Part shown: in pieces, positions 6,067 to 51,910 of the stretch
Layout: every line of letters starts with the position of its first letter
Numbering within the stretch: the first letter of the stretch is position 1
Assembly: GCF_009795885.1 (NCBI RefSeq)
Contig: NZ_WTEV01000007.1
Location: 5,036-69,035, forward strand
DNA length: 64,000 nt
From: Gilliamella sp. Pas-s25
GTDB lineage: Bacteria; Pseudomonadota; Gammaproteobacteria; Enterobacterales; Orbaceae
Direction of reading: 5' to 3'
The notes under the pieces: generated by a model
What the model was told of the DNA's origin: nothing
The model's database searches: none
What the model saw: the letters and a program-made list of their open reading frames with translations, nothing else
Translations under genes and position numbers: made by a program

Positions 6067-6118
6067 CTCATGTTACAATACCTAGCTTAAATACTTATGT
6101 AATTTTTAGGAGTTAACA

Positions 6119-36739: not shown

Positions 36740-37076
36740 ATCAATAAATAATAGAGGAGGGTTTCTGCCAATTATATACTTAAAATCGACATACACGTAA
36801 CAAAATTTCGAACTAAAATTCGAACTAAAATAAGCTTTCTTCGATTTTTTTGACCATTTATTATAGTTTAAATCGACGCTAATGTGACTTTAAATTTTAC
36901 AGCAGTAATAATTTGAATTTATTATGATTGATGTGATAATGATGAATCTGTTTTCCAGAAAATAAGGTAATAAGATTTGCAATATGATAGCTAATTGACA
37001 ATTAAGCAATAGTGAGGCACGCAATTTTACCAATAAATAACCCAATTTACTAACCTATCTATTTGATATAAATAAA
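36740..37076. other. Intergenic left border of the accessory island
   Basis: About 340 bases of AT-rich DNA without a gene or clear repeat. It marks the step from core genes to the run of small immunity-like genes. Confidence 0.5.
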
Positions 37077-37325
37077 TTAAAGTGTTGATAGATATTGAAT
37101 AATATTCTTTTTGGTCACTTTTTCTAAAATCACTGCATTTTTATCTTGAAAATAGCCGTTATTAGTTATTTCATGATTAGCATCTTGAACAAATCGCACA
37201 GGATCATAAAAATTGAAGGTATAGTGACGGTTATTTATGGTGACGTTGAAATTTAAAATGATACCTTTTGCTTCACTTTCAAATTGTAATAAATCGTCAT
37301 ACCAATCAGGTAGTTGAATCATCAT
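37077..37325 (-). CDS. Small uncharacterised protein
   Basis: An 82-residue soluble, acidic protein I do not recognise. AGGATAA precedes a double ATG, so the start is either of two adjacent codons. It contains FNVTINNRHYTFNFYDPVRF, which looks like a compact beta-rich fold. It is the left-most gene of the immunity-like island and on the same strand as its neighbours. Confidence 0.6.
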   Translation of the reverse strand: MMIQLPDWYDDLLQFESEAKGIILNFNVTINNRHYTFNFYDPVRFVQDANHEITNNGYFQDKNAVILEKVTKKNIIQYLSTL

Positions 37326-37443
37326 TTATCCTATTTTTTGCTATATAAAATCTTATGCTGAAAATCTAAAAATTTTTGATGCATGATATTATTGATTGTA
37401 TATCAATAGATTAAATATTTATTAACTGGTTGTCTTTGTTATT

Positions 37444-37890
37444 TTATTCAAATACTTTCAACTTTGATAATCGATAATCGCCTTTATCGTACACACATCC
37501 AAGTAAAACATTCCCTTGGGTCTTTATGGTTATTTCACGCTGATAACAATACTGCTGTTCAAAGTGCCATGCTATATTTGCAATATCAAGATATTTTAAG
37601 ATAAGCTCAAAACTACTATTAGCATTGATAGTAAAATCATTTAAAAATGTAAAAGAGCTACGCTCGACATCAACGCCTAATGAGTATATTTTGGCTTCTA
37701 TTATCATGATTTCTATTGCCTGATAAAAATAGCTAAAGCCTTCGTCTTTATTAGATTCATCAAAGTAATGTTTTTTACCTAATACTTTGGGGGGTAAAAT
37801 TGCATATAATGCTTGTTCGGATAACCCTACTTTTAAGCCTAAATAACTACCTGTTTCTAGAAAGTTTTTTATATTCATTGATTTATCCAT
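37444..37890 (-). CDS. Putative immunity-type protein
   Basis: A 148-residue acidic, soluble protein without signal peptide. No named family is recognised. The N-terminal part (GLKVGLSEQALYAILP, then SNKDEGFSYFYQAIEI) has the look of small immunity proteins that describe a conditional charge-rich surface. A second ATG at 37878 has a better-spaced GGA. Function is inferred only from island context. Confidence 0.6.
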   Translation of the reverse strand: MDKSMNIKNFLETGSYLGLKVGLSEQALYAILPPKVLGKKHYFDESNKDEGFSYFYQAIEIMIIEAKIYSLGVDVERSSFTFLNDFTINANSSFELILKYLDIANIAWHFEQQYCYQREITIKTQGNVLLGCVYDKGDYRLSKLKVFE

Positions 37891-38002
37891 AACATGGGGA
37901 ATAGATATAACACATAAAAAAACACGCGGTATTATTATTACCTTAACCCTTTGTTATCACAACGAGTATTTATTGGCTTTTTAGTACTATTTATGCTGAG
38001 CA

Positions 38003-38386
38003 CTATTTAACATCATATAAATAAAATCCCTCTTCAGTGAGATAAAAAACCCGTTTGCAATCTTGCGTAAATATGGAAGATATCAAAAATGGCCTGAGAT
38101 CATCATAATTAATGGCGTGCTGAATAAAATCGATCAATTGTGCTTTAAATGCCCTGACTAGTTGCCCTGCAAATATGGCTTTTTTACCCTTATAAACAAT
38201 TAAGTTATGTGCAATATAATAGCTATCCTTTTCAAGGAGATAAACAAGGTCTGAAAATGACTGAGTAAATAAAGTTAAATTGCCCTTACGCACAACGTCT
38301 AACATGTTGAAAAATATATCTTGCTTATCAGTTCCTAATACAAATTCTTTGTTGGCTAAATTTTTAAATACGTAATTATTTTTCAT
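38003..38386 (-). CDS. Putative immunity-type protein
   Basis: A 127-residue soluble protein of unknown family. Hydrophobic strands alternate with helices (QLVRAFKAQLIDFIQHAINY). It lies 8 bp after the next gene upstream on the same strand, so the two probably share a transcript. Confidence 0.6.
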   Translation of the reverse strand: MKNNYVFKNLANKEFVLGTDKQDIFFNMLDVVRKGNLTLFTQSFSDLVYLLEKDSYYIAHNLIVYKGKKAIFAGQLVRAFKAQLIDFIQHAINYDDLRPFLISSIFTQDCKRVFYLTEEGFYLYDVK

Positions 38387-38394
38387 TGTTCTAT

Positions 38395-38682
38395 TTATGA
38401 TGACTTAATATCTGTAAGTAACTGCTTTAGTCGTCTAATTTCATTAATTAATCTTGGTATATCCTGTCGTGCATGAGCAATAAATTCTTGATCGGCAATA
38501 GTTGCGCCAATAAGCTCGATGTCTTCGCCTCGATTATTGTTATCACCTGTCATGATAAAATTACCACCACTAGTATGATCTCTATCCTCAACATAAGACA
38601 CCCAAGGTCCTTTAGTTGCGTTATTACATCGCATTTGTATCAATTTTAATTCGTCATCAGAGATATTCGTTGTTCGTTGCAT
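38395..38682 (-). CDS. Small immunity-island protein
   Basis: A 95-residue protein. RCNNATKGPWVSYVEDRDHT, a GxNFIMTGD stretch and FIAHARQDIPRLINEIRRLK form a pattern I have seen in widely scattered small proteins of unknown function. ATG at 38682 is chosen because AAAGAGGTG sits just before it; a GTG two codons upstream is inside that ribosome-binding site. Confidence 0.68.
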   Translation of the reverse strand: MQRTTNISDDELKLIQMRCNNATKGPWVSYVEDRDHTSGGNFIMTGDNNNRGEDIELIGATIADQEFIAHARQDIPRLINEIRRLKQLLTDIKSS

Positions 38683-39039
38683 TGACACCTCTTTAGCTAA
38701 GCACGGTAAAATAATGGGAAAAGTTGATTATCTTGATTGCTAAATGCAGTATATAACCATAAATTGATCATTAAATAAATTTAAAACCAGTAAATCATCT
38801 CGATAAACAAACATAATGATTTATATTTCTAGGCAAAATCATCCTATACTTTAATTAAATTTTATTATTAACAAACTTATATCCATTAATCATTTTATTT
38901 TTCTGCATAATCCAGTTCAAAAAGTTAATCGGCTATTCTTCTATTATCATTTTAAACCAATCTTAACGCAGTTGTTGGCTCTGATACAAAATTGGGAACT
39001 AAATAGTTTTGTTTTAGATTGTTTTAAAAAATAGTCTTA
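38683..39039. other. AT-rich spacer inside the island
   Basis: About 350 bases without an open frame of note on either strand. No hairpin with a T-tract was seen. Confidence 0.45.
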
Positions 39040-39426
39040 TCATTTGTTATTTAATCGTCGTTTTAACTTTCTTATTTCAGGCGTTAATGCAAAGCAGTCT
39101 TCTATAGGCTCATCAGATAACGACCAATAATCAATGAGATCCATATAATCATCATGATTATGAAATAAAAGCGCTAATACTTGGCTAATTTTTGGCGATG
39201 ACGCGCTCATTCCCGATGATAATAAATCATTGGTCACATCAAGTAATAAAGTCATGAGTATGTGCTTTTGTAACTTTGAATATGTTGAATTAACATAAGC
39301 ATAGAGGTATTTATCGAGCCATGTTTGCGTTCGATACTGATCGGGCAGTTCATACGCCCAATCTTGAGTGAATTTATCACCGAGTGGTAAATGTAGATCG
39401 TTACATAGCTGTTTTAGTTCCCACAT
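39040..39426 (-). CDS. Putative immunity-type protein
   Basis: A 128-residue, mostly helical soluble protein (LQKHILMTLLLDVTNDLLSS, LTPEIRKLKRRLNNK). No family recognised. The ribosome-binding site is weak. Same strand as the flanking small genes. Confidence 0.6.
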   Translation of the reverse strand: MWELKQLCNDLHLPLGDKFTQDWAYELPDQYRTQTWLDKYLYAYVNSTYSKLQKHILMTLLLDVTNDLLSSGMSASSPKISQVLALLFHNHDDYMDLIDYWSLSDEPIEDCFALTPEIRKLKRRLNNK

Positions 39427-39470
39427 ATTTTATTCTTTCATTATTGATGAAGCTATAATTGATTGTTGCG

Positions 39471-39809
39471 TTACAGCTCTAAAAAATTATCATTTTCTGC
39501 ATAATAATTTAATGATTGAATAAAGTCATCTATCGTGGCTGACGGCTTTTGATCTAAGACAACATCAACAACATCAGCAAATTGTTGACCTGAATAAAGA
39601 TAATGTAAATGCTTTTGCCGTACAAGAGGAGGGTAAATTTCTTGTCCATCATCATCGACTTCAGGATAGTCATCAATATAATAGCTTTCTTGATTTTCCA
39701 ACTCTTTGTCTTCAACGCCATATACACAAAAATCATCATCTCGTTCAAGACTATTTTTCATATAGTTGATTATATCGTTTATTGAATAAAGATTTTCTTT
39801 GATAAGCAT
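39471..39809 (-). CDS. Acidic small protein, paralogue of the protein at 46082-46393
   Basis: A 112-residue acidic protein. Its C-terminal third (FADVVDVVLDQKP-AT-DDF, then YYAENDNFLEL) aligns with that of the protein at 46082-46393, giving the shared pattern P-x-AT-x-x-D ... YY-x-END-x-FL. It may belong to DUF7716, from memory. AGGA lies right before the start. A DNA-mimicking or toxin-binding role would fit its charge but is inference. Confidence 0.65.
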   Translation of the reverse strand: MLIKENLYSINDIINYMKNSLERDDDFCVYGVEDKELENQESYYIDDYPEVDDDGQEIYPPLVRQKHLHYLYSGQQFADVVDVVLDQKPSATIDDFIQSLNYYAENDNFLEL

Positions 39810-39869
39810 GTTCCTAATACTCCTATATCATTTTGGATCATTATAATATTGCGAATATAATCTCTACTT

Positions 39870-40280
39870 TTATAAAAAGGCCGTTTCAGCATAACCTATT
39901 TTTATCATTGAGAGATTTTTTAATTTAACGCCGATACCATGTTCACTATCGCCAGACCAGGCAAACATAAAGCCATATTCATCCTTTTCTGGTAATAAGT
40001 AAATTTTAATGAGTGAAATTTGCGATAATACTTTACCGCCATCTTGCTTATAAACTTGAGTAATATAAGCCGTGATTTCATTATTGATGATGTGATGAAG
40101 TTCGACTTGGTGAGATTTAATAAAATCGATATTATTTAGCATGTTATTATCAGACTCAAAGGATTCTAGATAAATAATCGGGATACATTGTTGGCTAAAA
40201 CTAGCCAACAGAATATCTATTGCTATGCCTTCGTCCTCAATAATATAGCTGTTTATATTTTGGCGATTGTTCTTTTCCAT
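39870..40280 (-). CDS. DUF6985-like putative immunity protein
   Basis: A 136-residue acidic protein. The C-terminal part FMFAWSGDSEHGIGVKLKNL followed by KIGYAETAFL resembles the DUF6985 pattern W-x-x-D-x-EHG-x-G ... IG found in immunity-like proteins. The family assignment is from memory and tentative. It is directly downstream of the ComJ-like gene. Confidence 0.6.
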   Translation of the reverse strand: MEKNNRQNINSYIIEDEGIAIDILLASFSQQCIPIIYLESFESDNNMLNNIDFIKSHQVELHHIINNEITAYITQVYKQDGGKVLSQISLIKIYLLPEKDEYGFMFAWSGDSEHGIGVKLKNLSMIKIGYAETAFL

Positions 40281-40346
40281 TTATTAATCTCGGTTAAATT
40301 TGTGGCGAGTATGTCCCGATTAGCGCTAAACCTGTTGAAGTTAGCA

Positions 40347-40829
40347 TTATACTCTACCTGATTGAAGCATTTTCCCTTTTTGACCACCCCATTGGTCATC
40401 AATAATGTAGTGAGCAGTAATCGGCACAAGTGCAGGTACAAAGGTAAATTTATAAAAAACTTCATCACCTTCACAAATTTCATAATGCAGTGAATATAAT
40501 GGTGCATCTAATTGTAGGTTAACAGTAAATTTTTCTGTCGCCGAGGCAACTTCAATCACATTGTCAGGATGTGTATAAAAAGGAACAACAATGCAGCGTT
40601 GGGTTTGGTTATCCATTATAAAATTATCTGCTAAGGTTAAAACGACATTCGCACCGAAAGCATCATCAGGTAATGGATCAAAAATAACATAATCGTGATG
40701 AATAACGGCACCTTGTTCGATATTTTGGTTGCCCCATTGCGATAATTCTTCACTGAATGGTCTTGATCTAACCAAAATTTGACTATGAGATATTAATAAA
40801 TCCACAACCTGCTGTTTGTTTTTTTCCAT
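40347..40829 (-). CDS. ComJ-family nuclease inhibitor
   Basis: A 160-residue ComJ-like protein. SHSQILVRSRPFSEELSQWG, DYVIFDPLPDDAFGANV, a CIVVPFYT strand, FYKFTFVPALVP and a C-terminal DDQWGGQKGK follow the Bacillus ComJ pattern. ComJ inhibits the extracellular DNA-entry nuclease NucA. No NucA-like gene is in the window, so here it more likely protects against a NucA-type toxin domain delivered by competitors. ATG at 40829 follows GAGGGGATT; two in-frame TTG codons lie just upstream. Confidence 0.78.
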   Translation of the reverse strand: MEKNKQQVVDLLISHSQILVRSRPFSEELSQWGNQNIEQGAVIHHDYVIFDPLPDDAFGANVVLTLADNFIMDNQTQRCIVVPFYTHPDNVIEVASATEKFTVNLQLDAPLYSLHYEICEGDEVFYKFTFVPALVPITAHYIIDDQWGGQKGKMLQSGRV

Positions 40830-41045
40830 CAACAATCCCCTCTTTTACACACTATAAAATCATCAAATTAAATATAGGAAACCGCTGGATTGTTTACACC
40901 ACATAATTAAACTAATCCGCTAACACTTACAAGGCGTTTTACTAAAAATCGATTAAGTTTTGTTTTCTATTTTTTACATCACTAACTATTTGCTTATTAT
41001 GCCACATCCCAATGAAAGTAAACATATTTTTCTGATTTTTCATTC

Positions 41046-41400
41046 ATTTATTAGCTAGCATCTTTTGTGAATGTTTAATTGATTCGTTAGTATCATAGGT
41101 CTTAACCAATAGATGCTGCAAAGTCTCAATTAATCACCAAACGGCATAGAATCCTGAATATTTTTTACAAAAATATGACCGAAGAAATGAGCCTCACATC
41201 TTCATTAAAATACCTATCTCTTTTAGTTTTCCCATTCTTTTGTCGGCTAGCAGGTTTTGTGAATGTTTGAGTGATACGTTAGTATCATAGGGATTAACCA
41301 ATAGCATACGGTAAAGTCTCCATTAACCGCCAAACGGTATAGAATCCTGAATATTTTTTACAAAAATATGACCGAAAAATCGACAGTTGGGTAAATACCC
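41046..41400 (-). pseudogene. Tandem decayed copies of one reading frame
   Basis: Two imperfect direct repeats of about 140 bp (about 41046-41184 and 41238-41377, offset 192-193 bp) each encode, on the minus strand, FFGHIFVKNIQDS-[MI]-PFG, then after a stop and frame change a run with YDTN-x-S-[IL]-KHSQ and LLA-x-K. The right copy continues MGKLKEIGIL. They look like remains of two paralogous immunity-type or toxin-tip genes. I could not name the family. Confidence 0.5.
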
Positions 41401-41487
41401 TGCCTGTTTTAGTAGATAGCAGATTATTTAATTCTTCATGAGGTCTTTCGGTGTTATCTATATGACTTAAAAAGAATATAACAAAAC

Positions 41488-41922
41488 TTATTTAACTAAA
41501 ATAAGATTAAGTGGGTTATTTAATTCAATTACTATTTTGAAATTGGCACTTGATTCCACCCTAAGAAAGTGATTGGGTAATTCAATTGCATTAATGAATG
41601 GGTTTGATGTTTCGAAATAGATCACCCATTTTAAATCATCCTTAGGTGTTAAGTAGGCGATAAAACCTTCCGAGCCATAGCTTCCTTCACCTAAAAAGCA
41701 TTTATTACCATTTGTTAGGGTGATTTTTTGGATGATATCTATATTAGTGATATTATCAGGATCTTTATCCAAAAAAAGATTAAGGTGGAATGGTTTCCCT
41801 TTTTTAATTAACAATTGGGGATAAAACTGGGCTGAAAGGGATATCGATTCACCAGTAGAAAAGTAAATCCCGTCTTTTATAGGTAACGTTTGTTTATTCC
41901 ATAACGCCAATATTTTTGTCAT
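41488..41922 (-). CDS. Putative immunity-type protein
   Basis: A 144-residue beta-rich soluble protein of unknown family. LGEGSYGSEGFIAYLTPKDD followed by WVIYFETSNPF is a striking motif. AAGAGTG precedes the ATG. Island context suggests immunity; nothing else supports it. Confidence 0.62.
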   Translation of the reverse strand: MTKILALWNKQTLPIKDGIYFSTGESISLSAQFYPQLLIKKGKPFHLNLFLDKDPDNITNIDIIQKITLTNGNKCFLGEGSYGSEGFIAYLTPKDDLKWVIYFETSNPFINAIELPNHFLRVESSANFKIVIELNNPLNLILVK

Positions 41923-42000
41923 CTAAGCACTCTTTTATATGTTAATCCCAAAAAGCGTGGTTAATTTATTGCATAATCAAATCTAGATTTGATGCAAGTA

Positions 42001-42504
42001 TTATAAATCTCTATTAGCTAATTTATACGGAATATTCATCAAAGTAGCCTTTTGTTTTTTATCGAACATTACTTTATATTTGCTTAATGTCGAGTGATTA
42101 ACTGAACTATAATGCTCTAATTCAGTGCTTAGTGTACCATCATCCTCCCAATCACATAATGGGCAAACATCGTATTGTCCTTGATGAGTTAAGGTTAAAT
42201 AATGGCAACAAGGGCATGCATGCAAAATATCTTCGTCCCCTATAATGGTAATAGATTTACCATATAAAGCACTAACATATTGTTTTAAATATTGATTAGA
42301 ATAGCCTTTCAATTTAATATCAATAAAATAGCCTAATAAAAACGGTTGAATAGCATCATCATAGATATTTGTATATGCTAAAGGTTGACCATCTTTATCA
42401 AGATAATTTGCAAAGAGAATATTCTCAATATCCTGTTTTGAAGATTGTGCAATCATTTCGATAGCTAACAGTGTTAAAGCGAGTTTTCGGCTGAGCGTCT
42501 TCAT
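42001..42504 (-). CDS. CPCC-family cysteine-rich protein
   Basis: A 167-residue protein whose middle (about residues 94-120) carries CPCCHYLTLTHQGQYDVCPL followed by CDWEDDG, the zinc-binding CPCC domain. This domain often occurs in small proteins next to polymorphic toxin loci. An N-terminal helical region precedes it. It is divergent from the next gene by about 130 bp. Confidence 0.72.
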   Translation of the reverse strand: MKTLSRKLALTLLAIEMIAQSSKQDIENILFANYLDKDGQPLAYTNIYDDAIQPFLLGYFIDIKLKGYSNQYLKQYVSALYGKSITIIGDEDILHACPCCHYLTLTHQGQYDVCPLCDWEDDGTLSTELEHYSSVNHSTLSKYKVMFDKKQKATLMNIPYKLANRDL

Positions 42505-42631
42505 TGAGTTAAAGTGAACGATGATAAATTATCTAATTTATCAAAAATACAGTTTGATCACTACCTCGCTTTTTATTTTATGCTTATGATAAATGAAAAA
42601 CTGGAACAATAAAAAAGATAGAATGTGAAAT

Positions 42632-43084
42632 ATGGAAAGATTAAATATTGATCTTATTGATATTATTAACAATGGCGGCTTTTTAAAGTGCCTGCCTGCT
42701 TTAGCGCAAGATGCTTTTTTTCGACGTTGCCGAATAGAAACAATGAAATCAGCCATTTTGTACACAGCTAAAATCGGACTTTTTGATATAGAAATAGGTC
42801 TTGATAAAAAAGAACATAGTGGCTATGAACTCATTAATTTATCTGAAGATAACCATGAAGTTAGTGGTATCGCTATCCATGATACTTATGGAATAATGAA
42901 AACAAATTTTAATGCTTTATTACCAGCTAATATTATCCAACTATTGCCTGAGCATACAGTAAACCATATAGATAATATAGAACAAATTGAAATACACTTC
43001 TGTAGTGGAAGCACTATAATTTATCAGCGAGCTGACTTACCGCCTGCGGTGATATCCAATACATTAAAGAGCGTCATTTTTTGA
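42632..43084 (+). CDS. Putative immunity-type protein
   Basis: A 150-residue soluble protein, first of the rightward half of the island. No family recognised. It begins with a helical region and ends with beta-rich sequence (IEIHFCSGSTIIYQRAD). The ribosome-binding site is weak. Confidence 0.6.
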   Translation: MERLNIDLIDIINNGGFLKCLPALAQDAFFRRCRIETMKSAILYTAKIGLFDIEIGLDKKEHSGYELINLSEDNHEVSGIAIHDTYGIMKTNFNALLPANIIQLLPEHTVNHIDNIEQIEIHFCSGSTIIYQRADLPPAVISNTLKSVIF

Positions 43085-43126
43085 ATTGGAATAATGTGTG
43101 ATTTGTTTATCGTCATCAATTAATAT

Positions 43127-43270
43127 ATGATTATTATTGATTATATAAGGAAAAATAGAGATAACATTTCAAAAGAAGATCTCAAAATTTAATCAATTAA
43201 AATTGAGTCACATGAAAAAAGAAATGTTGCCCTTGATCTGTTGCGATACCCAAAAGGTAATAAAAAATGA
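43127..43270 (+). pseudogene. Decayed C-terminal reading frame overlapping the next gene (ATGA)
   Basis: A 47-codon frame with one in-frame TAA (codon 22): KNRDNISKEDLKI, stop, SIKIESHEKRNVALDLLRYP, then KGNKK. Its TGA overlaps the ATG of the gene at 43267 as ATGA, the coupling typical of toxin-immunity pairs. I read it as the eroded tail of a toxin or of an upstream immunity gene. Confidence 0.4.
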
Positions 43271-43860
43271 ACTCTATCGATATTATAAAAAGCTATTTGG
43301 CAGGCACACTTTCTCCACAGGATTTTCAAAAAGAACTTTATTATAATAAGGATATTGAAGATCTTCTATCGGAAGAGAACCAAATTCCCCCCTATACCAA
43401 CAGATATAAAAACGCATTTTTATATCTTATTGAAATTGATATTTTATTGCCATCAGGTGAAATCAATAGTAAAGATTTACTTTCAAAGTTTCTCGCTAAA
43501 AGAAATATTAACTTCTCGTTAAATAATGAACATGAAAAAAAGTATGATCTATTCATGAAAATTCAGCCAAGCTGGTTAAATTTAACTGAACCATACTTTA
43601 ATTTAATCATGAATAAACATCGGGATAAAGTTGGAGTTGAATTAGAAAGAGCGTTAAAATTAGAAATTAAGAAAGATTTTAAATTCTTAAAAAATAGACC
43701 TAAGTGGCTCCAATCCCCAAACTGGCCAACCGTAGATAACAAACCATTAATTTTTATAGGTCAATTAGATATAACCGAAATCAGCCACGATATTACCTAT
43801 TTATATATTTTTTTAAATGAAAAGGAAAATACATATATGACTTTTGAGCAATCAACATAA
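43267..43860 (+). CDS. Putative immunity protein (DUF1963-like end)
   Basis: A 197-residue protein. The N-terminus (IDIIKSYLAGTLSPQDFQKE) resembles colicin-immunity-like helices that define how a cell carries a small binding partner. The C-terminal half has PKWLQSPNWPTVDNKPLIFI then GQLDI, recalling the YwqG/DUF1963 motif W-P-x-x-x-x-x-P-h-x-F-h-x-Q-h-x-h. The start overlaps the stop of the relic upstream. Confidence 0.66.
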   Translation: MNSIDIIKSYLAGTLSPQDFQKELYYNKDIEDLLSEENQIPPYTNRYKNAFLYLIEIDILLPSGEINSKDLLSKFLAKRNINFSLNNEHEKKYDLFMKIQPSWLNLTEPYFNLIMNKHRDKVGVELERALKLEIKKDFKFLKNRPKWLQSPNWPTVDNKPLIFIGQLDITEISHDITYLYIFLNEKENTYMTFEQST

Positions 43861-43946
43861 ACAATAACTAACTGGCAACACGGCGATATGATTTAATAAT
43901 AATTCTATCGGGGTGTCATATCTAGCAAAATCTCAAGCGATATATC

Positions 43947-44324
43947 ATGAATAAATTGAAAATTAAGCAACAAAAGTTTGAAGTCAAACATTACTGGTCC
44001 CCAGATATACATGATCCTTGGCGATGGAAACCAGAAGACAATGCAGTATTTTACTTATTAGAAATGAATATTGGTATTACAGGAAAGGATGAAACAGATA
44101 TTTATTCAATTATTATTGCCACTCCAGAAGGGATAATGAATTTAAATAACAACAGAATGCAACAACCTAAATTATATAAAATGTTGTTACTATACCAATA
44201 CGATTGGAATAAGGTTAGACGCACAATAGATCAGCAGCTTGCTTTGATAAATCCCACTGATGAAATACAAGCCTTGGATAAATTAGCCAGTAGTTTTTAT
44301 TGGGAATATGATGCTATGAAATAA
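43947..44324 (+). CDS. Imm8-family immunity protein
   Basis: A 125-residue protein with the Imm8 pattern: HYWSPDIHDPWRWKPEDNAV, then LLEMNIGITGKDETDIYSII and ATPEG, ending with a helix and FYWEYDAMK. Imm8 proteins neutralise toxin domains of contact-dependent or secreted polymorphic toxins. No matching toxin gene is upstream; only 86 bp separate it from the preceding gene. Confidence 0.8.
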   Translation: MNKLKIKQQKFEVKHYWSPDIHDPWRWKPEDNAVFYLLEMNIGITGKDETDIYSIIIATPEGIMNLNNNRMQQPKLYKMLLLYQYDWNKVRRTIDQQLALINPTDEIQALDKLASSFYWEYDAMK

Positions 44325-44384
44325 CCCTAAAAAAATATGCTAATTATGAATATGTGGTGATGAGTAATTAGCACAATTTATTAA

Positions 44385-44519
44385 GTGATCCTTTATAGCG
44401 GTTTGAGTAAAAATAGTTCGGTTGAGACTGAGCCTAATGAGAACGTGCAAACTAAAACCAGCGTTCATGTGGATTGCAAAAGTGAAGTATATAAGTATTC
44501 CATAAAATGGGAGTTTTAA
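44385..44519 (+). pseudogene. Orphan C-terminal coding tail upstream of an immunity-type gene
   Basis: A 44-codon open stretch without a start, containing SSVETEPNENVQTKTSVHVD and, after CKSE, VYKYSIKWEF before TAA. It ends 5 bp before the ATG at 44525, and the ribosome-binding GGGAG of that gene overlaps its last codons. Position and composition suggest the tip of a lost toxin gene. Confidence 0.4.
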
Positions 44520-44524
44520 TATTA

Positions 44525-44989
44525 ATGCATATTCAAAGAGAAAAGATCTTATATGCACTGCAAAAAGCATATGGCGATTTAAGCAACCCTGATTTCCATT
44601 TCGTGATGAAATCCTACAATTCTCTAAAATATAAATGTCTACTAAATGATATCCATGCTTTATTTAAAATAGAAGATAATACTGATTTAAACTATGACGT
44701 ATGTATATCGCTAAAATTTAATTATCATAATAAATCAATGTATTTATATTTATCTTTAGTATCGGCCTATGCTTTTTTATATTATGAAAATAAAGTTATT
44801 GATTGTAATGATGATATTTATCAAATATTGCCTGAACTGATTGATATATTACATGATTATCATTTTGTGTTGTTAAACAAAAATGAGCTTTTATATACCT
44901 TTGATATAAATTCCTCGGCTTTTGGTGTCGAGGATAAAAAAGCCTCAGTTTTAGCACTGTTGTTTTCATTCGGTTTATCGGTCAATTAA
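44525..44989 (+). CDS. Putative immunity-type protein
   Basis: A 154-residue acidic protein of unknown family, rich in Tyr and Leu. Start set at 44525 because GGGAG at 44509-44513 is well spaced; an in-frame ATG at 44507 includes that site. It directly follows an orphan coding tail. Confidence 0.62.
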   Translation: MHIQREKILYALQKAYGDLSNPDFHFVMKSYNSLKYKCLLNDIHALFKIEDNTDLNYDVCISLKFNYHNKSMYLYLSLVSAYAFLYYENKVIDCNDDIYQILPELIDILHDYHFVLLNKNELLYTFDINSSAFGVEDKKASVLALLFSFGLSVN

Positions 44990-45049
44990 AAATAATAATT
45001 AAACTACATGATGACAGCTTGGGAATAGTCGAAATAGGAGAAAAATAAA

Positions 45050-45409
45050 ATGCCAGAAGTACACAATCAGGCAATTGAAACAATCTATGGAGAAATATAT
45101 GGAAGAGACGCTTTAATATTAAAAGACATCATATTTGATATGTTTCCACTGGAATTAAAGGTAGTAGCTTCTTTGTGGTTACCACATTGTCAACCCAGCA
45201 GAAGATTAGAAGGTGAGGCTTTAATCTGTTTTAAATTTAAAAATATAAAAAGTTTAACTATTACGATGATTGATGAATCAAAATATCAGCTGGTAAAAAA
45301 ATCTTGTTTCGATAAAGTATTTGATAAGGAACAAGATGAACATTATGTTTTAAGTACTTATGATCATATTTTTGATGTGATTGGTCAATGTGAAGTAAGC
45401 TACAAATAG
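45050..45409 (+). CDS. Putative immunity-type protein
   Basis: A 119-residue soluble protein with a TAGGAG site. Sequence such as ALILKDIIFDMFPLELKVVA and EGEALICFKFKNIKSLTITM suggests a beta-sandwich. No family recognised. Confidence 0.6.
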   Translation: MPEVHNQAIETIYGEIYGRDALILKDIIFDMFPLELKVVASLWLPHCQPSRRLEGEALICFKFKNIKSLTITMIDESKYQLVKKSCFDKVFDKEQDEHYVLSTYDHIFDVIGQCEVSYK

Positions 45410-45555
45410 TTATTAACGTTTGTAATAATTTGGAAGGAAAATTGGCTGATAATATGGTTGTACATCATAAAAACCCATTATTTCGTCAATAATAAGATTT
45501 ACACAAGTATCCTAAAAGAATATCCCTTATTTGGTGTTAATTAAAAGAGGTTGGT

Positions 45556-46041
45556 ATGAATTTATTCTGCGATAATTGTAATAAAGCATTTATAGCATCA
45601 GAGGAGCAAGACCGATTCATCTTAGTTTCTCGTGAAAAAAACATGAAATTCATTATGATACAGTGCCCTTATTGTTCAATGAGTTATGCTTTTAATCCAA
45701 TGCAGTTAACTAACCTAGACAATAAAAAAATTCCTGTTGTTAATGGGTTAAGATGCCCTAAAGAAATATGTACGGGTATAGTATCTTATATTGAAGATAT
45801 CCCTCCATTTTTTGGGTGTGGTGAATGTGGTAACGTCTGGTTAAAAAAAGAAAATTTGTATGATGATATTAAAAATATAATATCTAAGTATCCTTATAGA
45901 AAACATGCATATAATATAATAAACGGCGAATACTTACCCGTTCTAGATAAAGAAATTCCATCATGCTATGATGAGCAAGTCAGTTTAGAGTGGAATGATC
46001 AAATAAATCAAAATGATGGTTGTGATGATTGCAGAAAATAG
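45556..46041 (+). CDS. Zinc-ribbon protein of the immunity island
   Basis: A 161-residue protein with four Cys pairs: CDNCNKAF at the start, CPYCS near residue 38, CPKEIC near 67 and CGECGN near 90, plus CDDC at the end. The pattern indicates two zinc ribbons. GAGG precedes the ATG. Function unknown. Confidence 0.65.
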   Translation: MNLFCDNCNKAFIASEEQDRFILVSREKNMKFIMIQCPYCSMSYAFNPMQLTNLDNKKIPVVNGLRCPKEICTGIVSYIEDIPPFFGCGECGNVWLKKENLYDDIKNIISKYPYRKHAYNIINGEYLPVLDKEIPSCYDEQVSLEWNDQINQNDGCDDCRK

Positions 46042-46081
46042 CCAGATACAATTTATTGTAAATAATAATTGGAGATTATGA

Positions 46082-46393
46082 ATGAAAACTATAAAAGGAA
46101 TTGAAAATTTATTCCGTATTTATAAAAATCTGGATGAACCATGGCGCTTTTTTGTGGAACCTGAATTTATAAATGAGATCAATTGCATTAAAAATGCCAA
46201 TTATTACGTTGCAGAGACGGAAGATGAATTTGATGAAATGGATGATACACCTGATAAATATAACCCATGGTTAGAATATCCGACATTTCAAGCCATTATC
46301 GATAATAAACTTGAACATCATCCTAATGCTACAAAAAAAGATTTATTAGATGCTATTATTTATTACCTTGAAAATGATGATTTTTTGGATTAA
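46082..46393 (+). CDS. Acidic small protein, paralogue of the protein at 39471-39809
   Basis: A 103-residue strongly acidic protein (many Asp and Glu around residues 45-65). The C-terminal pattern P-x-AT-x-x-D ... YYLENDDFLD pairs it with the protein at 39471-39809. TTGGAG lies upstream. Possibly DUF7716. Confidence 0.66.
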   Translation: MKTIKGIENLFRIYKNLDEPWRFFVEPEFINEINCIKNANYYVAETEDEFDEMDDTPDKYNPWLEYPTFQAIIDNKLEHHPNATKKDLLDAIIYYLENDDFLD

Positions 46394-46402
46394 TCCAAAA
46401 TA

Positions 46403-46432
46403 GGAAGGTCAAAAAAAGGTCTTTCCGTTTTT
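46403..46432 (+). terminator. Terminator after the acidic paralogue
   Basis: GGAAGG/CTTTCC stem (one G-U) with a 12-nt loop, followed by GTTTTT, 10 bp after the stop at 46393. Confidence 0.6.
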
Positions 46433-46520
46433 AAGCAAAAATCTGTAGTAGTAAAATTTACCGTTGTTAACTGCATTAATGTAGTCTATTTAAAACAGTT
46501 TTTATCGCTAAAGAGAAATT

Positions 46521-47402
46521 ATGAAAAAATTTTTAGAATTACTAAATAAACAAGGTATAAAGTACCTCATTGAAGACAATAAGATCACAGTTGATGGTAA
46601 TTTAAATCTAAGAAATAAAGGAATTAAAGCATTACCTGAAAACTTGTTTGTTAACGGGGATTTGATTTTAACTCATACAAAAATTGAAGCACTGCCTAAA
46701 AATTTTTCTGTTAGTGGTGATTTAGATTTAACAAATACAGAAATCAGAAAATTACCTGAAAATATACTTATTGGTGGCTATTTATATTTAACAAATACGG
46801 AAATCAAAGCATTACCTAAGAATTTTTCGATTAGTGGTAGTCTAAATTTAGCAAAAACAAAAATAACAGCACTACCAGAAAACCTATCTGTCCAAGGTGA
46901 TCTCAATTTAACAGTGACAAACATCAAAATGCTACCGGAAAACTTATCAGTTGGTGGGAGTTTATACTTAGGATTTACAGAAATAGAAGCATTACCAGAA
47001 CACTTTTCTATTAAAGGTGACTTAGATTTGAAATTTACCAAAATGACTAAGTTACCTGAATACTTATCCGTTGATGGTCTCTTAAACATCGAATCGACAG
47101 AAATTCAAGAATTACCCGAAACCTTATCTGTTACTCGTGGCATACATTTGGATATAGATCAAATACAGAATATAGCTTATCGTAAAACTGATGAAGATAA
47201 GTCGCAAACTATTTTTGCTTGTTGGGCTAATGGCGCATTTGCAATTCAAGCAACAGACTTTTTTGGTACACTTGCAGATTTTGAAAAAATGGTGGATGAA
47301 AACTATTCTGAAGAAAATGCGATACAATATAAAAAAATGGCGAATGAATGTATTAAAGAGTTAACTATAAAGCTTAATAAACCGTCACTGAGAGTAAATT
47401 AA
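46521..47402 (+). CDS. Leucine-rich-type repeat protein
   Basis: A 293-residue protein. From about residue 35 to 214 there are nine tandem 20-residue units of the form I-x-aLPenlsV-x-GdLdLt-x-Te, giving a visible 60-bp period in the DNA. A non-repeat C-terminal domain follows (CWANGAFAIQATDFFGTLAD, with a helical end). The repeats should build a curved solenoid for protein binding. Good AAAGAGAAATT site. No signal peptide, so it acts in the cytoplasm; a toxin-sequestering role is inference. Confidence 0.78.
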   Translation: MKKFLELLNKQGIKYLIEDNKITVDGNLNLRNKGIKALPENLFVNGDLILTHTKIEALPKNFSVSGDLDLTNTEIRKLPENILIGGYLYLTNTEIKALPKNFSISGSLNLAKTKITALPENLSVQGDLNLTVTNIKMLPENLSVGGSLYLGFTEIEALPEHFSIKGDLDLKFTKMTKLPEYLSVDGLLNIESTEIQELPETLSVTRGIHLDIDQIQNIAYRKTDEDKSQTIFACWANGAFAIQATDFFGTLADFEKMVDENYSEENAIQYKKMANECIKELTIKLNKPSLRVN

Positions 47403-47542
47403 GATAAGTTAAAAAAGCAAATCTTCTTAATTGACTCAATGCTATCGCCAGATAAAGTAATATTATACCAATCACGTTCTTCTATATGATTAGGTAACAA
47501 GCGCTTTAGATATTTACGATAATATTGTTGATTTAAAGCAAT
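47399..47542 (-). pseudogene. Minus-strand coding relic
   Basis: A 47-codon open stretch without a start: ALNQQYYRKYLKRLLPNHIE, then ERDWYNITLSGDSIESIKK and a stop at 47399. Codon and residue make-up are protein-like. It lies antisense to its neighbours. Family unknown. Confidence 0.35.
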
Positions 47543-47574
47543 CTATTGTTTAAAACAAACTAAGCTGCTAAAAA

Positions 47575-47934
47575 ATGAATATACAACATATAGAAACAGC
47601 TGATTGCAATATCTTGGATACTAAAATATTTTCTCATGAAATTAAGATATATTTTGCATCAGTTTACCAATTAGAGACAAAACAACGTATAACTAATGTT
47701 TGTTTATCGATTTTTAATTGGTCATTTTTTGAAGCAAATGTTTTTATCGTTAATCATTTGAATAATCGCTTTGAACAGAAAACGTTATTCAAACATGAAT
47801 TAGAGTTTTTTGAATATATTCAGAAAATATCGCTTGAACAAAATAATTTTATATTACAAGGATACAGTAAAAAATCTGGCAACTGGCTAGAGTATCGTTT
47901 CATAGATAGTGATTTTTGCTTGACCATGTTTTAA
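47575..47934 (+). CDS. Putative immunity-type protein
   Basis: A 119-residue soluble protein, beta-rich, unknown family (VCLSIFNWSFFEANVFIVNH). No clear ribosome-binding site, so expression may depend on a leaderless or weak start. Confidence 0.55.
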   Translation: MNIQHIETADCNILDTKIFSHEIKIYFASVYQLETKQRITNVCLSIFNWSFFEANVFIVNHLNNRFEQKTLFKHELEFFEYIQKISLEQNNFILQGYSKKSGNWLEYRFIDSDFCLTMF

Positions 47935-48108
47935 CAAAAATATAGCTGCGCATGTAATAACTATGCAACCGTTTTTGTAGTGCTATAAGCATTGATAAAA
48001 AAATAAATTAATTGTCTGACAAAAAGCTTAAGTGATCTATGGAATATAGGCTGTTATTTCTAGTGTCATAACACGTTTATTTGGGTATCAATGTAAAGGT
48101 ACATAATC

Positions 48109-48713
48109 ATGAAATCAAAAGATCAACGCTTCCTATTCTTAATTGAAAATAAAACCGCCCCTTGGGGCGATATACTTTGGACAGGGTTAACACCTTGGGA
48201 TGAAAATAAGCAGTCTATTGCTATCGAACGTACTGGACCTTTTACTCCAAAAGCTTATTTTTCAAATAATAACTTTATTTTTACAAAAGAAATAAAGGAA
48301 CTAATCGAAAATTCCTCATTAAAAGACATTAAATTTTTGTATGAAATAGAAAAAAAGAAAATTATTAATCTTGATTGGACAAAATGGGATGTGAATAAAG
48401 ATATAACTGATTATTTGATCTATATGAACCAGTGGATTTAATTTTTGATGGTATTAATGATGTAAAATTAAATCAGGATATGCCAGATTATTACTTGTCT
48501 AGTATAGAAAGCCAAATTCATTTAAACAAAAATAAACTTATCGATATGCAAAACCCTTCGGAATATATTACTTTTGTTGGCAACGCACTTGATGATTCTG
48601 ATTTTTTTATGGGAATTGAAATACTAGGCTGTTTTATTAGTGCAAGAGCCATAAATTGGCTAGAAAAATACTGCCCTAACTGTTTTGATTACTATTTAAT
48701 TAAACCTGATTAA
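48109..48713 (+). pseudogene. Imm11-like (DUF1629) immunity gene split by a 2-bp frameshift
   Basis: Frame one (48109-48441) contains TPKAYFSNNNFIFTKEIKEL and frame two (48432-48713) contains GNALDDSDFFMGIEILG and ends YCPNCFDYYLIK; together they follow the Imm11/DUF1629 layout. The join lies at CTATATGAACC. Removing one AT unit (48422-48425 region) fuses them as ...DYLIYEPVDLIFDG.... Frame two could start at GTG 48432, but has no ribosome-binding site. Either a recent mutation, a reversible switch, or a sequencing error. Confidence 0.62.
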
Positions 48714-48731
48714 TAGTGGAAATATTCTAAC

Positions 48732-49064
48732 TTAATTGCTTAATCTAAATAAAAGATAATCATATAATTTTTCTGCTAAAAAATTAGCATGCTCACTTTT
48801 TACGATTAAATTAAAAAAATAGTATTGGTTATACAAATCTTCAATTATAGGATCTGAAAGTCTACAAAATTCGATGTAAGCTAAATATAATTTTTTTATA
48901 TCATCAGAAATTTCTTCTAAAGAGATATGATAATTGGTTATATCATAAAAGATATTAGTGAATTTATGATTAATAATACTTAACTCTATAAAAGGAGTAT
49001 GACTTTTCTCACAAAATGCCCAGTGCATAGATTTTGTTTTATCATCTTTATAAATAAATTTCAT
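48732..49064 (-). CDS. Putative immunity-type protein
   Basis: A 110-residue helical, acidic protein (DDIKKLYLAYIEFCRLSDPI) of unknown family. It starts 2 bp after the end of the decayed frame at 49067-49460 on the same strand, as an immunity gene would follow its toxin. Confidence 0.6.
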   Translation of the reverse strand: MKFIYKDDKTKSMHWAFCEKSHTPFIELSIINHKFTNIFYDITNYHISLEEISDDIKKLYLAYIEFCRLSDPIIEDLYNQYYFFNLIVKSEHANFLAEKLYDYLLFRLSN

Positions 49065-49066
49065 AA

Positions 49067-49460
49067 TTAATCTTTTATCTTAAAATTTGTGACTTGTATC
49101 ATTATGTCATTTTCCCCTGTTTCACCATATAATGGATTCCAACATCATTAATTTTTGTTCTATCCTCTAAGAGCTTTGATTGTGGTTCACTCATCGCATA
49201 ATTCAACTTGACTATGGCAAAATAATTTTCGGGTGTTCTATCTAAATAAGATCTTCATTAGTATTTGTTTGAAAACCCCAAAATGACTTCTAACGGCAAT
49301 GATTCTCCAACACAATCAATACAGTAGTCAAAGGTACGTTGCGTTTTTTTGTTATAGCGCGATTAATCGACCAAAACATCCCATTTATGTCTAATCTGGT
49401 TATTATTGAATTTATATTTTAGTTATTCTGAATCATTACCAACTGGTGAAAATAAAATAT
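49067..49460 (-). pseudogene. Decayed gene immediately upstream of an immunity-type gene
   Basis: About 130 codons of protein-like sequence broken by four or more stops and one frameshift: RHKWDVLVD, RTFDYCIDCVGESLPLEVIL, TPENYFAIVKLNYAMSEPQS, then KINDV and, in the next frame, YGETGENDIMIQVTNFKIKD. No start is seen. Likely the C-terminal part of a toxin or a larger immunity protein; family not recognised. Confidence 0.5.
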
Positions 49461-49470
49461 AATCAATTAA

Positions 49471-49899
49471 CTAATAATTCAATAGCGAATAACTTTGTGA
49501 TAATTTTGTGATAAAGTTATCAAAGGATTCAGACACTAAAACTAATTCTTTTTCATCCATTAACCATATATATATTTTCCCATAATTTTCATCTTTTAAT
49601 GAAAGTACAAAGCAATTTCCACCTTCATCATAAGCAAAAGGAATCATATTCTTTAAATTAGGGAAACTATCCACTAAGTCAGTGTATATATTTTCTATAG
49701 TTACATCACCGTATTTTATCGAATTAAAGCCACCTAATAAAAAGAAATTATGTCTTCCATTTTCAGGTGGGTAACCGCCATTAAATTCCATATAAAAATT
49801 AGAAAACGAAAGTGGAATCTTTTTGTCAAAGTATTTGCTAAATTCGTCTAATTCATCAAAAGATAATTGTTTTTCTGATTCTTCAAGTTTTAACCCCAT
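49471..49899 (-). CDS. SMI1/KNR4 (SUKH)-family immunity protein
   Basis: A 142-residue protein with the SUKH pattern: IPLSFSNFYMEFNGGYPPEN, FLLGGFNSIKYG, then MIPFAYDEGGNCFVLSLKDE and YGKIYIWLMDE. SUKH proteins are the largest group of immunity proteins against polymorphic nuclease toxins. It belongs to the minus-strand group 48732-50240. Confidence 0.85.
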   Translation of the reverse strand: MGLKLEESEKQLSFDELDEFSKYFDKKIPLSFSNFYMEFNGGYPPENGRHNFFLLGGFNSIKYGDVTIENIYTDLVDSFPNLKNMIPFAYDEGGNCFVLSLKDENYGKIYIWLMDEKELVLVSESFDNFITKLSQSYSLLNY

Positions 49900-49994
49900 T
49901 TGCCATTGCCTTTTTTAGTTGCGTAAATCTGTCTAAATACAGACCTAGATATCATCTAAGATAAAATCAGTTTTATAGCTATTATTTATAAACC

Positions 49995-50240
49995 CTATAA
50001 ATCATCTTCAAACACTAATTTAGAAATAAATTCATTAAAACTATTGCATAGAAATTGTTATCTTTAAAAGTTTTTCAACCTCATTTAGGTCAGCGGTATT
50101 ATTGCTTGTTCAGAGTCATAGAATTTGTTACTTGCTCTTGGTTTAATATCTTTATATTCAATAGTTTCATCTTAGTCTTGTTCTTCATTATAGGCTAAAG
50201 TATTTAAAAAACTTTCTAATGAATCAAATATATTCATCAT
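49995..50240 (-). pseudogene. Decayed small gene upstream of the SUKH gene
   Basis: Starts MMNIFDSLESFLNTLAYNEE, has an in-frame TAA after EEQD, resumes DETIEYKDIKPRASNKFYDS with EKLLKITISM, then shifts frame to NSFNEFISKLVFEDDL and stop. A small acidic protein, probably a dead immunity gene. Confidence 0.5.
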
Positions 50241-50331
50241 ACTAATTCCCAAATTATATTGCACCTGTAACTATCCGCAAAATAATAGAGTAAAAAAACA
50301 CAAAACTCATCTACAATATCAATAAAATAGG

Positions 50332-50670
50332 ATGATAATTTTTAGGCAAATAGCCATGATCCAAGAAATATTAAATAATCTAAGAAATGGTCCAACTATT
50401 TTAACGTTATCTCAGATAATAGATGTAATGAAATATCTTCAAGCATTTAAAGTTGAGGAGATATTAAAAAATGATCAAGGTTTTTTGGAGGTATTAGATA
50501 TATTAGTTGAATCTTATTCTGATTCAGCGATATTTGAAGTCAATAATGATAATAAATCATTTTTAGAAAATTTTAGTGATTGGTTGCTTAAATTAGGAGA
50601 AAAACACCCACTAGGTAACGATCAAGATGATTTAAGCTCTTATGCAAATATGTTTTTGAAAGAAATGTAA
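50332..50670 (+). CDS. Putative immunity-type protein
   Basis: A 112-residue, mostly helical acidic protein of unknown family (DVMKYLQAFKVEEILKNDQG). The alternative ATG at 50356 is equally plausible, giving 104 residues. It follows about 90 bp of gene-free DNA. Confidence 0.55.
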   Translation: MIIFRQIAMIQEILNNLRNGPTILTLSQIIDVMKYLQAFKVEEILKNDQGFLEVLDILVESYSDSAIFEVNNDNKSFLENFSDWLLKLGEKHPLGNDQDDLSSYANMFLKEM

Positions 50671-50921
50671 TATAAGATATTACTACTGAAAGCAGCTAAA
50701 GGTATGGAAAGCAAGATTCTAAATTATTATTTCAATAAATAATTTCATAGCTTTACATAAAAATATTTTTAATGCCTATTGTAGACCATATTCAAGTTTA
50801 GATGCATGAAAGCGAATATTAAATCTCTGAATCAAGATTATAATTTAGTTGCTAATGCTATATACTTTAAAATTATCAATTGAATAATGACTTTCTTTAA
50901 GAAAAAATAAGGATTCATAAA

Positions 50922-51290
50922 ATGAAAAATAAATATCTTACTGAAATTGATGATTATTTATCTGTTCCAACAAATTTCGATTTTTTAAAGTTATTAGATG
51001 CAGATCATCAATTGGATCTAAGAGATGAACATATATTTGATGATCAGTGGATGAATACCTTTAATGCATTAAAAAATAAAAGCTTTGATAATGATGAAAT
51101 CAAATTGATTAACACATTACGAGAAAAAGCATTTATGCTATCTTTAAAAGCGATTAATAATTTTGAAATATCATCCCGAATCGCTGACGATATTGAGATA
51201 ATAGCCAAGAGCTTTATAGCAGGAGAATATACTAACTGGGCTATTACACACTTATGGTCTGCTTATAAGAATAAAAGATTTCCTGTATAA
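50922..51290 (+). CDS. Putative immunity-type protein
   Basis: A 122-residue helical protein. LINTLREKAFMLSLKAINNF and SRIADDIEIIAKSFI with a C-terminal LWSAYKNKRFP. AAGGA precedes the ATG. Family not recognised; island context only. Confidence 0.62.
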   Translation: MKNKYLTEIDDYLSVPTNFDFLKLLDADHQLDLRDEHIFDDQWMNTFNALKNKSFDNDEIKLINTLREKAFMLSLKAINNFEISSRIADDIEIIAKSFIAGEYTNWAITHLWSAYKNKRFPV

Positions 51291-51345
51291 ATTTTATAAA
51301 AAAATAGCAGTTAGATAAAATACAGTTCGGCATGGTATATATTTT

Positions 51346-51798
51346 ATGCATAAAAATTTATTCACCATTGATGAAAAAAAATATCCTATTGCATGGAGAT
51401 TTAATTCTCAAGATTGCTTGCTATCCTTTGATGAAAAAAACAGGATTGTTTTCCTTGATACCGAAGAATCGAGTCATTTTTGGGATATGATATTTCCATT
51501 TGAACATTTAATGAACATCAATTCATCATGTTATTCTATTCTAGAAAAAATTACTTTGGATTTTAACTTTCCTCAAGAATCTTCTTTGTTTTTTAAAAAT
51601 AAATTAACCGACATTTCATCAGTTTTTTTCTTTTGGGAACGAAAAGCGAGTGCTATTGTACCGGTGGAGATTTTTGTTAAAGCATGGAGCGATTTTTTTT
51701 ATCCTAGTGATGAATCAAGTATTCTTTTAATTACCAATAGCAATAAGATGATCTTTTCTTATGAAGAAACATTTTTTTATGCAGATATATTAGATTAA
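51346..51798 (+). CDS. Putative immunity-type protein (possibly DUF2947)
   Basis: A 150-residue protein. PIAWRFNSQDCLLSFDEKNR and, near the end, FVKAWSDFFYPSDESSILLI recall the DUF2947 layout, from memory. Weak ribosome-binding site. Last gene of the island before zntA. Confidence 0.58.
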   Translation: MHKNLFTIDEKKYPIAWRFNSQDCLLSFDEKNRIVFLDTEESSHFWDMIFPFEHLMNINSSCYSILEKITLDFNFPQESSLFFKNKLTDISSVFFFWERKASAIVPVEIFVKAWSDFFYPSDESSILLITNSNKMIFSYEETFFYADILD

Positions 51799-51910
51799 TA
51801 AAGGATCAAAAGATCTGTCATCCCCCATTACCTCATTATTAAAAATAAAATGATTTTCTTTTTTATTTTTTAGCGTACAATCAAAATCATCCCCAAAACG
51901 AGGTAACGTT

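Follow-up and report, generated by a model that had tools for sequence, protein, structure and literature searches.

What is the role of a dense run of small genes that, in Gilliamella sp. Pas-s25, separates the gene of an MFS transporter from that of a ZntA-type ATPase? The run (the island) spans positions 37077-51798 of a 64,000-nucleotide stretch of DNA, the window of this analysis (C95:5036-69035, in a genome of 2.81 Mb and 109 contigs), and the original prediction, made from the DNA letters and their translations, regarded it as a store of resistance genes against the toxins of competitors. Our comparisons support that view, with independent evidence of an immunity role for 21 of 25 genes. 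The island is very probably a set of orphan immunity genes stored in the chromosome and directed against Rhs toxins that sister Gilliamella strains and Snodgrassella inject, and the sequence matches support the assignment of these toxins to the Rhs type associated with type VI secretion systems (T6SS). Genomes, contigs and loci are designated below by G, C and L handles; G000 is Pas-s25 itself, G010 is G. bombi, G041 is App6-5, G017 is WF3-4, G045 and G046 are the Gilliamella strains N-G2 and Pra-s52, and G051 is Snodgrassella alvi App4-8.

The island contains 26 non-overlapping open reading frames (ORFs) of at least 82 amino acids (aa), numbered I01-I26, against 1.64 on average and at most 3 in 50 first-order Markov shuffles, which bears out the expectation of more than 20 small genes. 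Because I20 and I21 correspond to a single gene of 193-205 aa, intact in G. bombi, App6-5 and G020, comparison with these relatives gives a count of 25 genes, not 26. Coding sequence takes up 10,785 of 14,722 bp, and G+C content is 29.4%, against 36.0% in the remaining window, which resembles housekeeping genes when judged by eye from the first residues of the proteins. The strands are opposed, as originally described, but there are four strand runs rather than two blocks: I01-I10 minus, I11-I21 plus, I22-I23 minus and I24-I26 plus. Pfam matches above cut-off among all 26 ORFs are ComJ, Cys_rich_CPCC, Imm8, SMI1_KNR4/SUKH-1, DUF7716 (twice) and DUF2947; the first four families had been recognised correctly, and the fifth, an Imm11-like protein, finds no Imm11 match in this search. 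NCBIfam adds no further immunity family for the 20 of 26 island proteins searched, and about 14 of the toxin-linked island proteins have no Pfam family above cut-off. The prediction was also right that toxin cores, secretion genes and mobile-element genes are missing: tblastn of the window with three Rhs ends from G012 detects no remnant of an Rhs core (best E 0.28), and no recombinase, transposase or secretion family exceeds the Pfam cut-off among the 26 ORFs.

The main evidence comes from the neighbours of homologous genes in other genomes. We collected homologues with E 1e-5 and at least 35% identity over half of the length in 166 of 205 loci, excluding 39 island loci, and asked whether an Rhs core end lay 0-600 bp upstream. 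Among 93 distinct homologues, 35 have such an end on their own strand and none has one on the opposite strand. Sixteen ORFs have such an Rhs-adjacent homologue (I01-I07, I10-I12, I15, I17, I19, I22, I24 and I26); for ten of them at least one relative follows an open toxin module (I02, I03, I05, I07, I10, I11, I15, I17, I24 and I26), five are found only behind broken or partial modules (I01, I04, I12, I19 and I22), and I06 is linked only through DUF7716 relatives. Homologues of I18 and of I20/I21 are later genes of toxin cassettes; together with the ComJ protein, and with the Imm8 and SUKH proteins, which qualify by family, these make up the 21 genes mentioned above. When loci retrieved by Rhs or toxin queries are set aside, 26 of 83 homologues, representing 14 ORFs, still follow an Rhs end; of 588 other ORFs in these loci, 75 have an Rhs end before them on their own strand and 10 on the opposite strand (Fisher p = 4e-5 for 26/83 versus 75/588). 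The test is conservative, because the controls include many other array genes. In six Burkholderia multivorans plasmid records a ComJ protein 62% identical to I08 overlaps a protein that is, by annotation only, an RHS core protein.

In G012, 13 island genes (I01, I02, I03, I08, I09, I10, I11, I13, I14, I18, I22, I24 and I26) have homologues within one 90-kb stretch, to which all 26 Rhs core matches of the genome are confined, and the homologues of I24, I10, I11 and I26 stand directly after toxin modules. The original prediction proposed a search for toxin-adjacent matches in co-resident species, and this search is positive: ten island genes (I02, I03, I05, I07, I10, I11, I17, I18, I24 and I26) have homologues of 53-77% identity in Snodgrassella Rhs cassettes, nine of them directly behind the toxin and I18 in second place. 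In S. alvi App4-8, one stretch of 6.4 kb reads toxin-I10, WHH-like toxin-I17-I18 and toxin-I11, and elsewhere the same genome pairs toxins with I03 (53%), I05 (62%), I07 (54-55%, a WHH toxin), I15 (42%) and I26 (77%). Toxin-I24 (74%) occurs in a second Snodgrassella genome, and a third carries toxin-I02 (64%) as well as toxin-I17-I18. Homologues of I11 occur in G. bombi, App6-5, WF3-4, N-G2, Pra-s52 and S. alvi App4-8. Eight toxin domains searched in 14 genomes of the genus of App4-8 match in three, and App4-8 itself carries seven of the eight, at 57-99% identity. App4-8 shares three of the Rhs toxin domains with Gilliamella (L094 and L175) at 97-99% identity, so that the toxin cassettes themselves, by this measure, cross between Betaproteobacteria and Gammaproteobacteria, in recent transfer.

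The same eight domains, searched in 35 Gilliamella genomes, match in G012, WF3-4, G020, N-G2 and Pra-s52; the genome of Pas-s25 yields a single 44-aa scrap, and App6-5 and G. bombi yield nothing. In the 116 kb around the 29 Rhs core matches of Pas-s25, a search with 11 toxins finds only tox15-like pieces and the tox24 scrap. In L204 (G000:C48:44001-64000), an Rhs array stretch of this genome, toxin ends are few and most of the genes are small and immunity-like. The strain is probably armed with a T6SS itself, because a TssC gene is present on contig C29. From the Rhs literature we infer that the C-terminal domain of an injected Rhs protein would be neutralised by a specific binding protein encoded alongside it. 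Each small island protein would accordingly be expected to bind and block the toxin domain of the matching injected Rhs protein, and the cell would survive contact with armed neighbours while retaining a T6SS and other Rhs genes of its own. An orphan Rhs immunity protein, 88% identical to its cognate, is described as protective in Serratia (PMC10539506), and diverged orphan proteins of recombinase-associated acquired interbacterial defence (rAID) clusters are described as able to protect, with rAID genes down to 30% identity with the cognate (PMC12247911); by analogy with these proteins, the island proteins may still protect.

How did these genes come together? Both flanking genes were searched in 24 Gilliamella genomes, Pas-s25 included; they lie on one contig in 18 and on different contigs in five, and G005 has no zntA match. 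The site is empty, with 126-360 bp between the MFS and zntA matches, in 13 of the 18 resolvable genomes; the other gaps measure about 1.0-1.1 kb in G016 and G006, 2.9 kb in G021, 4.9 kb in WF3-4 and 15.1 kb in Pas-s25. The gap of G016 contains tandem copies of a dispersed repeat core, and that of G021 contains genes for a 5'-nucleotidase and an endonuclease/exonuclease/phosphatase family protein, so that the site also accepts other genes. WF3-4 carries at this site I22, I10, I09, I08, I07, I05, I04 and I03, in the gene order of Pas-s25 and without a change of strand. The synonymous divergence (dS) of these eight genes from the Pas-s25 copies is 0.875, close to the 0.988 of four flanking genes, and the minus-strand array common to the two genomes is for this reason judged to be old. 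Between I10 and I22, Pas-s25 has the plus-strand block I11-I21, which WF3-4 does not have at that site; this accounts for the opposed gene blocks. On our reading, immunity genes would have become separated from their toxins and from Rhs cassette arrays and collected between the MFS gene and zntA, the minus-strand array (I22 and I10-I03) forming a first layer, and the plus-strand block I11-I21 and additions at the ends coming later.

The block has also moved between lineages. In G. bombi, I08-I22 are on contig C63, and the MFS gene and zntA are on other contigs. Its DNA is 95.9% identical to that of Pas-s25 over 5,985 bp (41436-47416), whereas surE/MFS and the start of zntA reach 83.5% and 82.4%, and dS is 0.126 for 13 island genes against 0.680 for three flanking genes (584 codons); within the block, dS is 0.02-0.14 for I11-I22 and 0.23-0.42 for I08-I10. 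We read these values as horizontal exchange of I08-I22 between lineages, in which the block sits at two different sites. App6-5 has the island genes, apart from a broken I26, at 93-99% aa identity on three contigs, two of which join flank genes; its island dS from Pas-s25 (0.062) is below the flanking value (0.185), which suggests recent exchange there too. The junctions of the added blocks contain no clear target repeat.

Several further features of these relatives deserve mention. App6-5 and G. bombi have, between I18 and I19, two additional genes that are not in the window, for a DUF2750 protein and an I18 paralogue (L085:1884-3461 and 5432-6078; L082:11419-12996), and in App6-5 a transposase gene (HTH_Tnp_1) adjoins I22 at a contig end. 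A five-gene immunity-like islet next to the G. bombi block is also found in Pas-s25 (C85, L215:1146-3826), App6-5 and WF3-4. The G012 array stretch contains relatives, at 51-66% identity, of four of the five islet genes; for one of the four, Snodgrassella also has a relative (53%) that stands immediately after an Rhs end. Four Gilliamella genomes (L168-L171) have, at another site and beside a gene that looks SugE-like by eye, a single ORF of 308-380 aa formed by relatives of I05 and I04, and in G014 a relative of I09 adjoins such a fused I05/I04-like ORF.

Several observations weigh against the reading of the island as a collected store, and the first concerns its origin. In G005, the last core of an Rhs array (L021:1044-8526, core matches of 46-66% identity) stands on the island side of the MFS gene, at a distance of 2.7 kb; in view of this array the island may partly be the remains of one, and our confidence is lowered for that reason. 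The original prediction would have been contradicted by a toxin core continuous with the island; the Pas-s25 genome shows none, and it is on the question of origin that the G005 array bears. The island could be the remnant of a cassette array at the MFS site, whose toxin ends decayed while the immunity genes survived, an explanation also in keeping with the G012 array, which has a distal Rhs-poor stretch rich in small genes, and with the similar C48 array of Pas-s25. We consider it rather unlikely: no Rhs core remnant is detected in the window, 19 of 20 site loci examined, that of WF3-4 among them, have no Rhs core match (G005 is the exception), no homologue of an island gene is found in the L021 array stretch of a genome in which zntA was not found either, the site is empty in 13 relatives, and the strands of the island are mixed. 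Even on this explanation the genes are orphan immunity genes, and only their origin differs. The G005 array itself has a different Rhs core type and three similar tandem cassettes.

Other points against the proposed store concern its members. No Rhs neighbour (within 600 bp, on the same strand, at 35% identity or more) was found in the loci examined for I09, I14, I16 and I25, which have no immunity family either. Some members may act on non-Rhs attackers or in other roles (ComJ is an inhibitor of the NucA nuclease in Bacillus), which would be compatible with the store of Rhs immunity genes and is suggested also by a Burkholderia relative of I25 without an annotated toxin neighbour. We hold this to be rather unlikely, as I09, I14 and I16 lie inside the block shared with G. 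bombi, and I09 and I14 have homologues in the array stretch of G012. Even the closest toxin-linked homologues of the island genes reach no more than 41-83% identity, and specificity may have drifted; an Rhs end also precedes 12.8% of the control ORFs from these loci, compared with 31% of homologues. The absence of toxins from Pas-s25 is genome-wide for eight of them and refers to its own Rhs stretches for tox03, tox07 and tox15, and its tox15-like pieces adjoin a 42% relative of I15. Structure predictions gave no usable model for I11 (seven sequences) or I14 (three sequences), with mean predicted local distance difference test scores (pLDDT) of 30.6 and 42.2. There is also some decay, in the split of I20/I21 in Pas-s25 and the broken I26 of App6-5.

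The island genes are under purifying selection by their substitution pattern. The ratio of nonsynonymous to synonymous divergence (dN/dS, omega) between Pas-s25 and App6-5 is 0.286 for 23 island genes (without I20, I21 and I26; bootstrap 0.22-0.36) and 0.110 for seven flanking genes, so that constraint is weaker than in the flanks but omega is clearly below 1. It is therefore very unlikely that the site is merely a permissive hotspot for functionless small foreign genes, as the unrelated genes of G021 at the same site, the low G+C content and the split gene might suggest, given this omega and the concentration of toxin-partner families in the island.

None of the ten island proteins submitted (of 26 ORFs) matches a PADLOC anti-phage model, megablast against 72,556 plasmid and 50,697 phage records finds no near-identical DNA, and a PDB sequence search with I11, I13, I08 and I23 gives no match at the limits set. 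Promoter-like sites are fewer than in shuffles (68 versus 104), and terminator-like sites are similar in number (7 versus 5.3). A dispersed repeat of 184-192 bp, with a conserved core of about 38 bp, was considered as a recombination element and rejected, since seven places inspected in the Pas-s25 genome are ordinary intergenic regions; the repeat is not specific to immunity genes, and in relatives it forms tandem arrays, with 109-bp spacing in L007 and 185-bp spacing in L087. Rfam has a single match in 36700-52000, far below the gathering score, and the RNA fold z of the repeat is -0.71. Pfam searches of ten further neighbour proteins identify the App6-5 transposase, DUF7919 (G005) and pyrroline-5-carboxylate reductase (G018), and give no match for seven.

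Table 1. Genes and other features of the island and its flanks (positions in the window; percentages are amino acid identities)
Feature	Position	Strand	Evidence
Left flank, MFS transporter	35531..36796	-	
I01, 82 aa	37077..37325	-	Homologue behind Rhs remnants: G017 61%, N-G2 51%
I02, 148 aa	37444..37890	-	62% homologous ORF overlaps end of full-length PAAR-Rhs (1,464 aa), S. alvi App4-8
I03, 127 aa	38003..38386	-	53% homologue directly 3' of Rhs toxin, S. alvi App4-8
I04, 97 aa	38395..38688	-	Homologues behind Rhs remnants in G006 and G020
I05, 128 aa	39040..39426	-	62-63% homologues with same Rhs toxin, open in S. alvi, internal stop in N-G2
I06, 112 aa, DUF7716	39471..39809	-	Only via DUF7716 relatives (38-41%) behind WHH-like Rhs toxins
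I07, 136 aa	39870..40280	-	54-55% homologue overlaps end of Rhs with WHH nuclease domain, S. alvi
I08, 162 aa, ComJ	40347..40835	-	Pfam; Burkholderia multivorans ComJ relative 62%
Two dispersed intergenic repeat copies, about 184-192 bp	41003..41379	not assigned	
I09, 144 aa	41488..41922	-	Toxin neighbour only for a 30% relative, G040
I10, 167 aa, C-terminal CPCC	42001..42504	-	61% homologue directly 3' of same Rhs toxin, G012 and S. alvi
I11, 150 aa	42632..43084	+	67-71% homologues directly 3' of same Rhs toxin, G012, G046, G045 and S. alvi
I12, 197 aa	43267..43860	+	83% tandem homologues behind broken Rhs ends, G017
I13, 125 aa, Imm8	43947..44324	+	Pfam
I14, 160 aa	44507..44989	+	No independent immunity evidence
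I15, 119 aa	45050..45409	+	Homologues behind Rhs ends: G010 81%, S. alvi 42%
I16, 161 aa, cysteine-rich	45556..46041	+	No independent immunity evidence
I17, 103 aa, DUF7716	46082..46393	+	58% homologues directly 3' of WHH-like Rhs toxins, G046 and Snodgrassella
I18, 293 aa, leucine-rich-repeat-like 20-residue repeats	46521..47402	+	Gene two of WHH-like cassette
I19, 119 aa	47575..47934	+	75-79% homologues behind broken Rhs ends, G046 and G017
I20+I21, overlapping ORF pair	48109..48713	+	Single gene elsewhere; after AHH toxin and Imm43 in G020
I22, 110 aa	48732..49064	-	75% homologue behind Rhs fragment, G012; adjoins I10 in WF3-4
I23, 142 aa, SMI1/KNR4 (SUKH-1)	49471..49899	-	Pfam
I24, 112 aa	50332..50670	+	72-74% homologues directly 3' of same Rhs toxin, G012, G045 and Snodgrassella
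I25, 122 aa	50922..51290	+	No independent evidence; Burkholderia relative without annotated toxin neighbour
I26, 150 aa, DUF2947	51346..51798	+	76-77% homologues directly 3' of same Rhs toxin, G012 and S. alvi
Right flank, P-type metal ATPase (ZntA type by eye)	51911..54229	+	

Orphan immunity arrays are known from other bacteria, and the island had been likened to the acquired interbacterial defence (AID) clusters of Bacteroidales. The likeness holds in part: the AID-1 and rAID systems, as described in PMC12247911, are small orphan immunity arrays without effectors that have toxin-linked homologues in co-resident bacteria and are shared horizontally. The rAID features tested are absent from the island: according to the same source, rAID clusters have a tyrosine recombinase, whereas none of the 26 ORFs here matches one (outside the island the window was checked by eye only), their genes are co-oriented rather than arranged in four strand runs, and they have a conserved intergenic motif, whereas no exact 12-mer recurs in at least 3 of 24 island spacers. 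The toxins matched by the island are also, unlike those of rAID, Rhs toxins of bee symbionts. The SAIDI-1 islet of Salmonella Typhi, as presented in PMC7400221, is likewise a mosaic at a fixed chromosomal site, most of whose members have homologues in T6SS or contact-dependent inhibition (CDI) loci, the toxins being said to be absent from the genome; it comprises 14 genes, eight of them in the immunity array, compared with about 25 genes here, and is described as having no two homologues together in one locus, whereas 13 island genes have theirs in one Rhs array stretch. Vibrio cholerae T6SS clusters likewise keep runs of orphan immunity genes after toxin replacement (as described in PMC5361080), but these lie in the 3' region of the clusters, while the island window has no Rhs or T6SS gene. 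In an Rhs cassette array formed by C-terminal displacement, Rhs core ends lie between the immunity genes; there are none in the window. By analogy, then, the island would function like AID and SAIDI-1, but without the rAID features tested. Orphaned immunity genes against the same toxin class have been reported in Gilliamella and Snodgrassella (PMC8125069, PMC5727410); the available passages of these papers describe no consolidated Rhs-free island, site, mosaic assembly or horizontal movement, and in open-access literature on Gilliamella Rhs and orphan immunity genes and on bee-gut genomic islands no title or abstract opening mentions this one.

We tentatively suggest, as something a little short of an even prospect, that the island represents a portable repertoire: lineages would trade a toxin-free anti-Rhs set, tuned to Snodgrassella and sister strains, between chromosomal sites with no recognisable recombinase, and the approximately 14 Pfam-less toxin-linked proteins would found new immunity families. 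Orphan immunity genes are seen here apart from toxin arrays, with layered assembly, movement of a block between lineages and purifying selection. By their position in other genomes, I01-I05, I07, I11, I12, I15, I18-I22, I24 and the DUF7716 and DUF2947 proteins can be tied to Rhs immunity, and specific island genes can be paired with the particular Snodgrassella Rhs toxins expected to be their targets. In a simple animal gut community, this would be a concrete, testable pairing of shield and weapon between two bacteria that belong to different classes.

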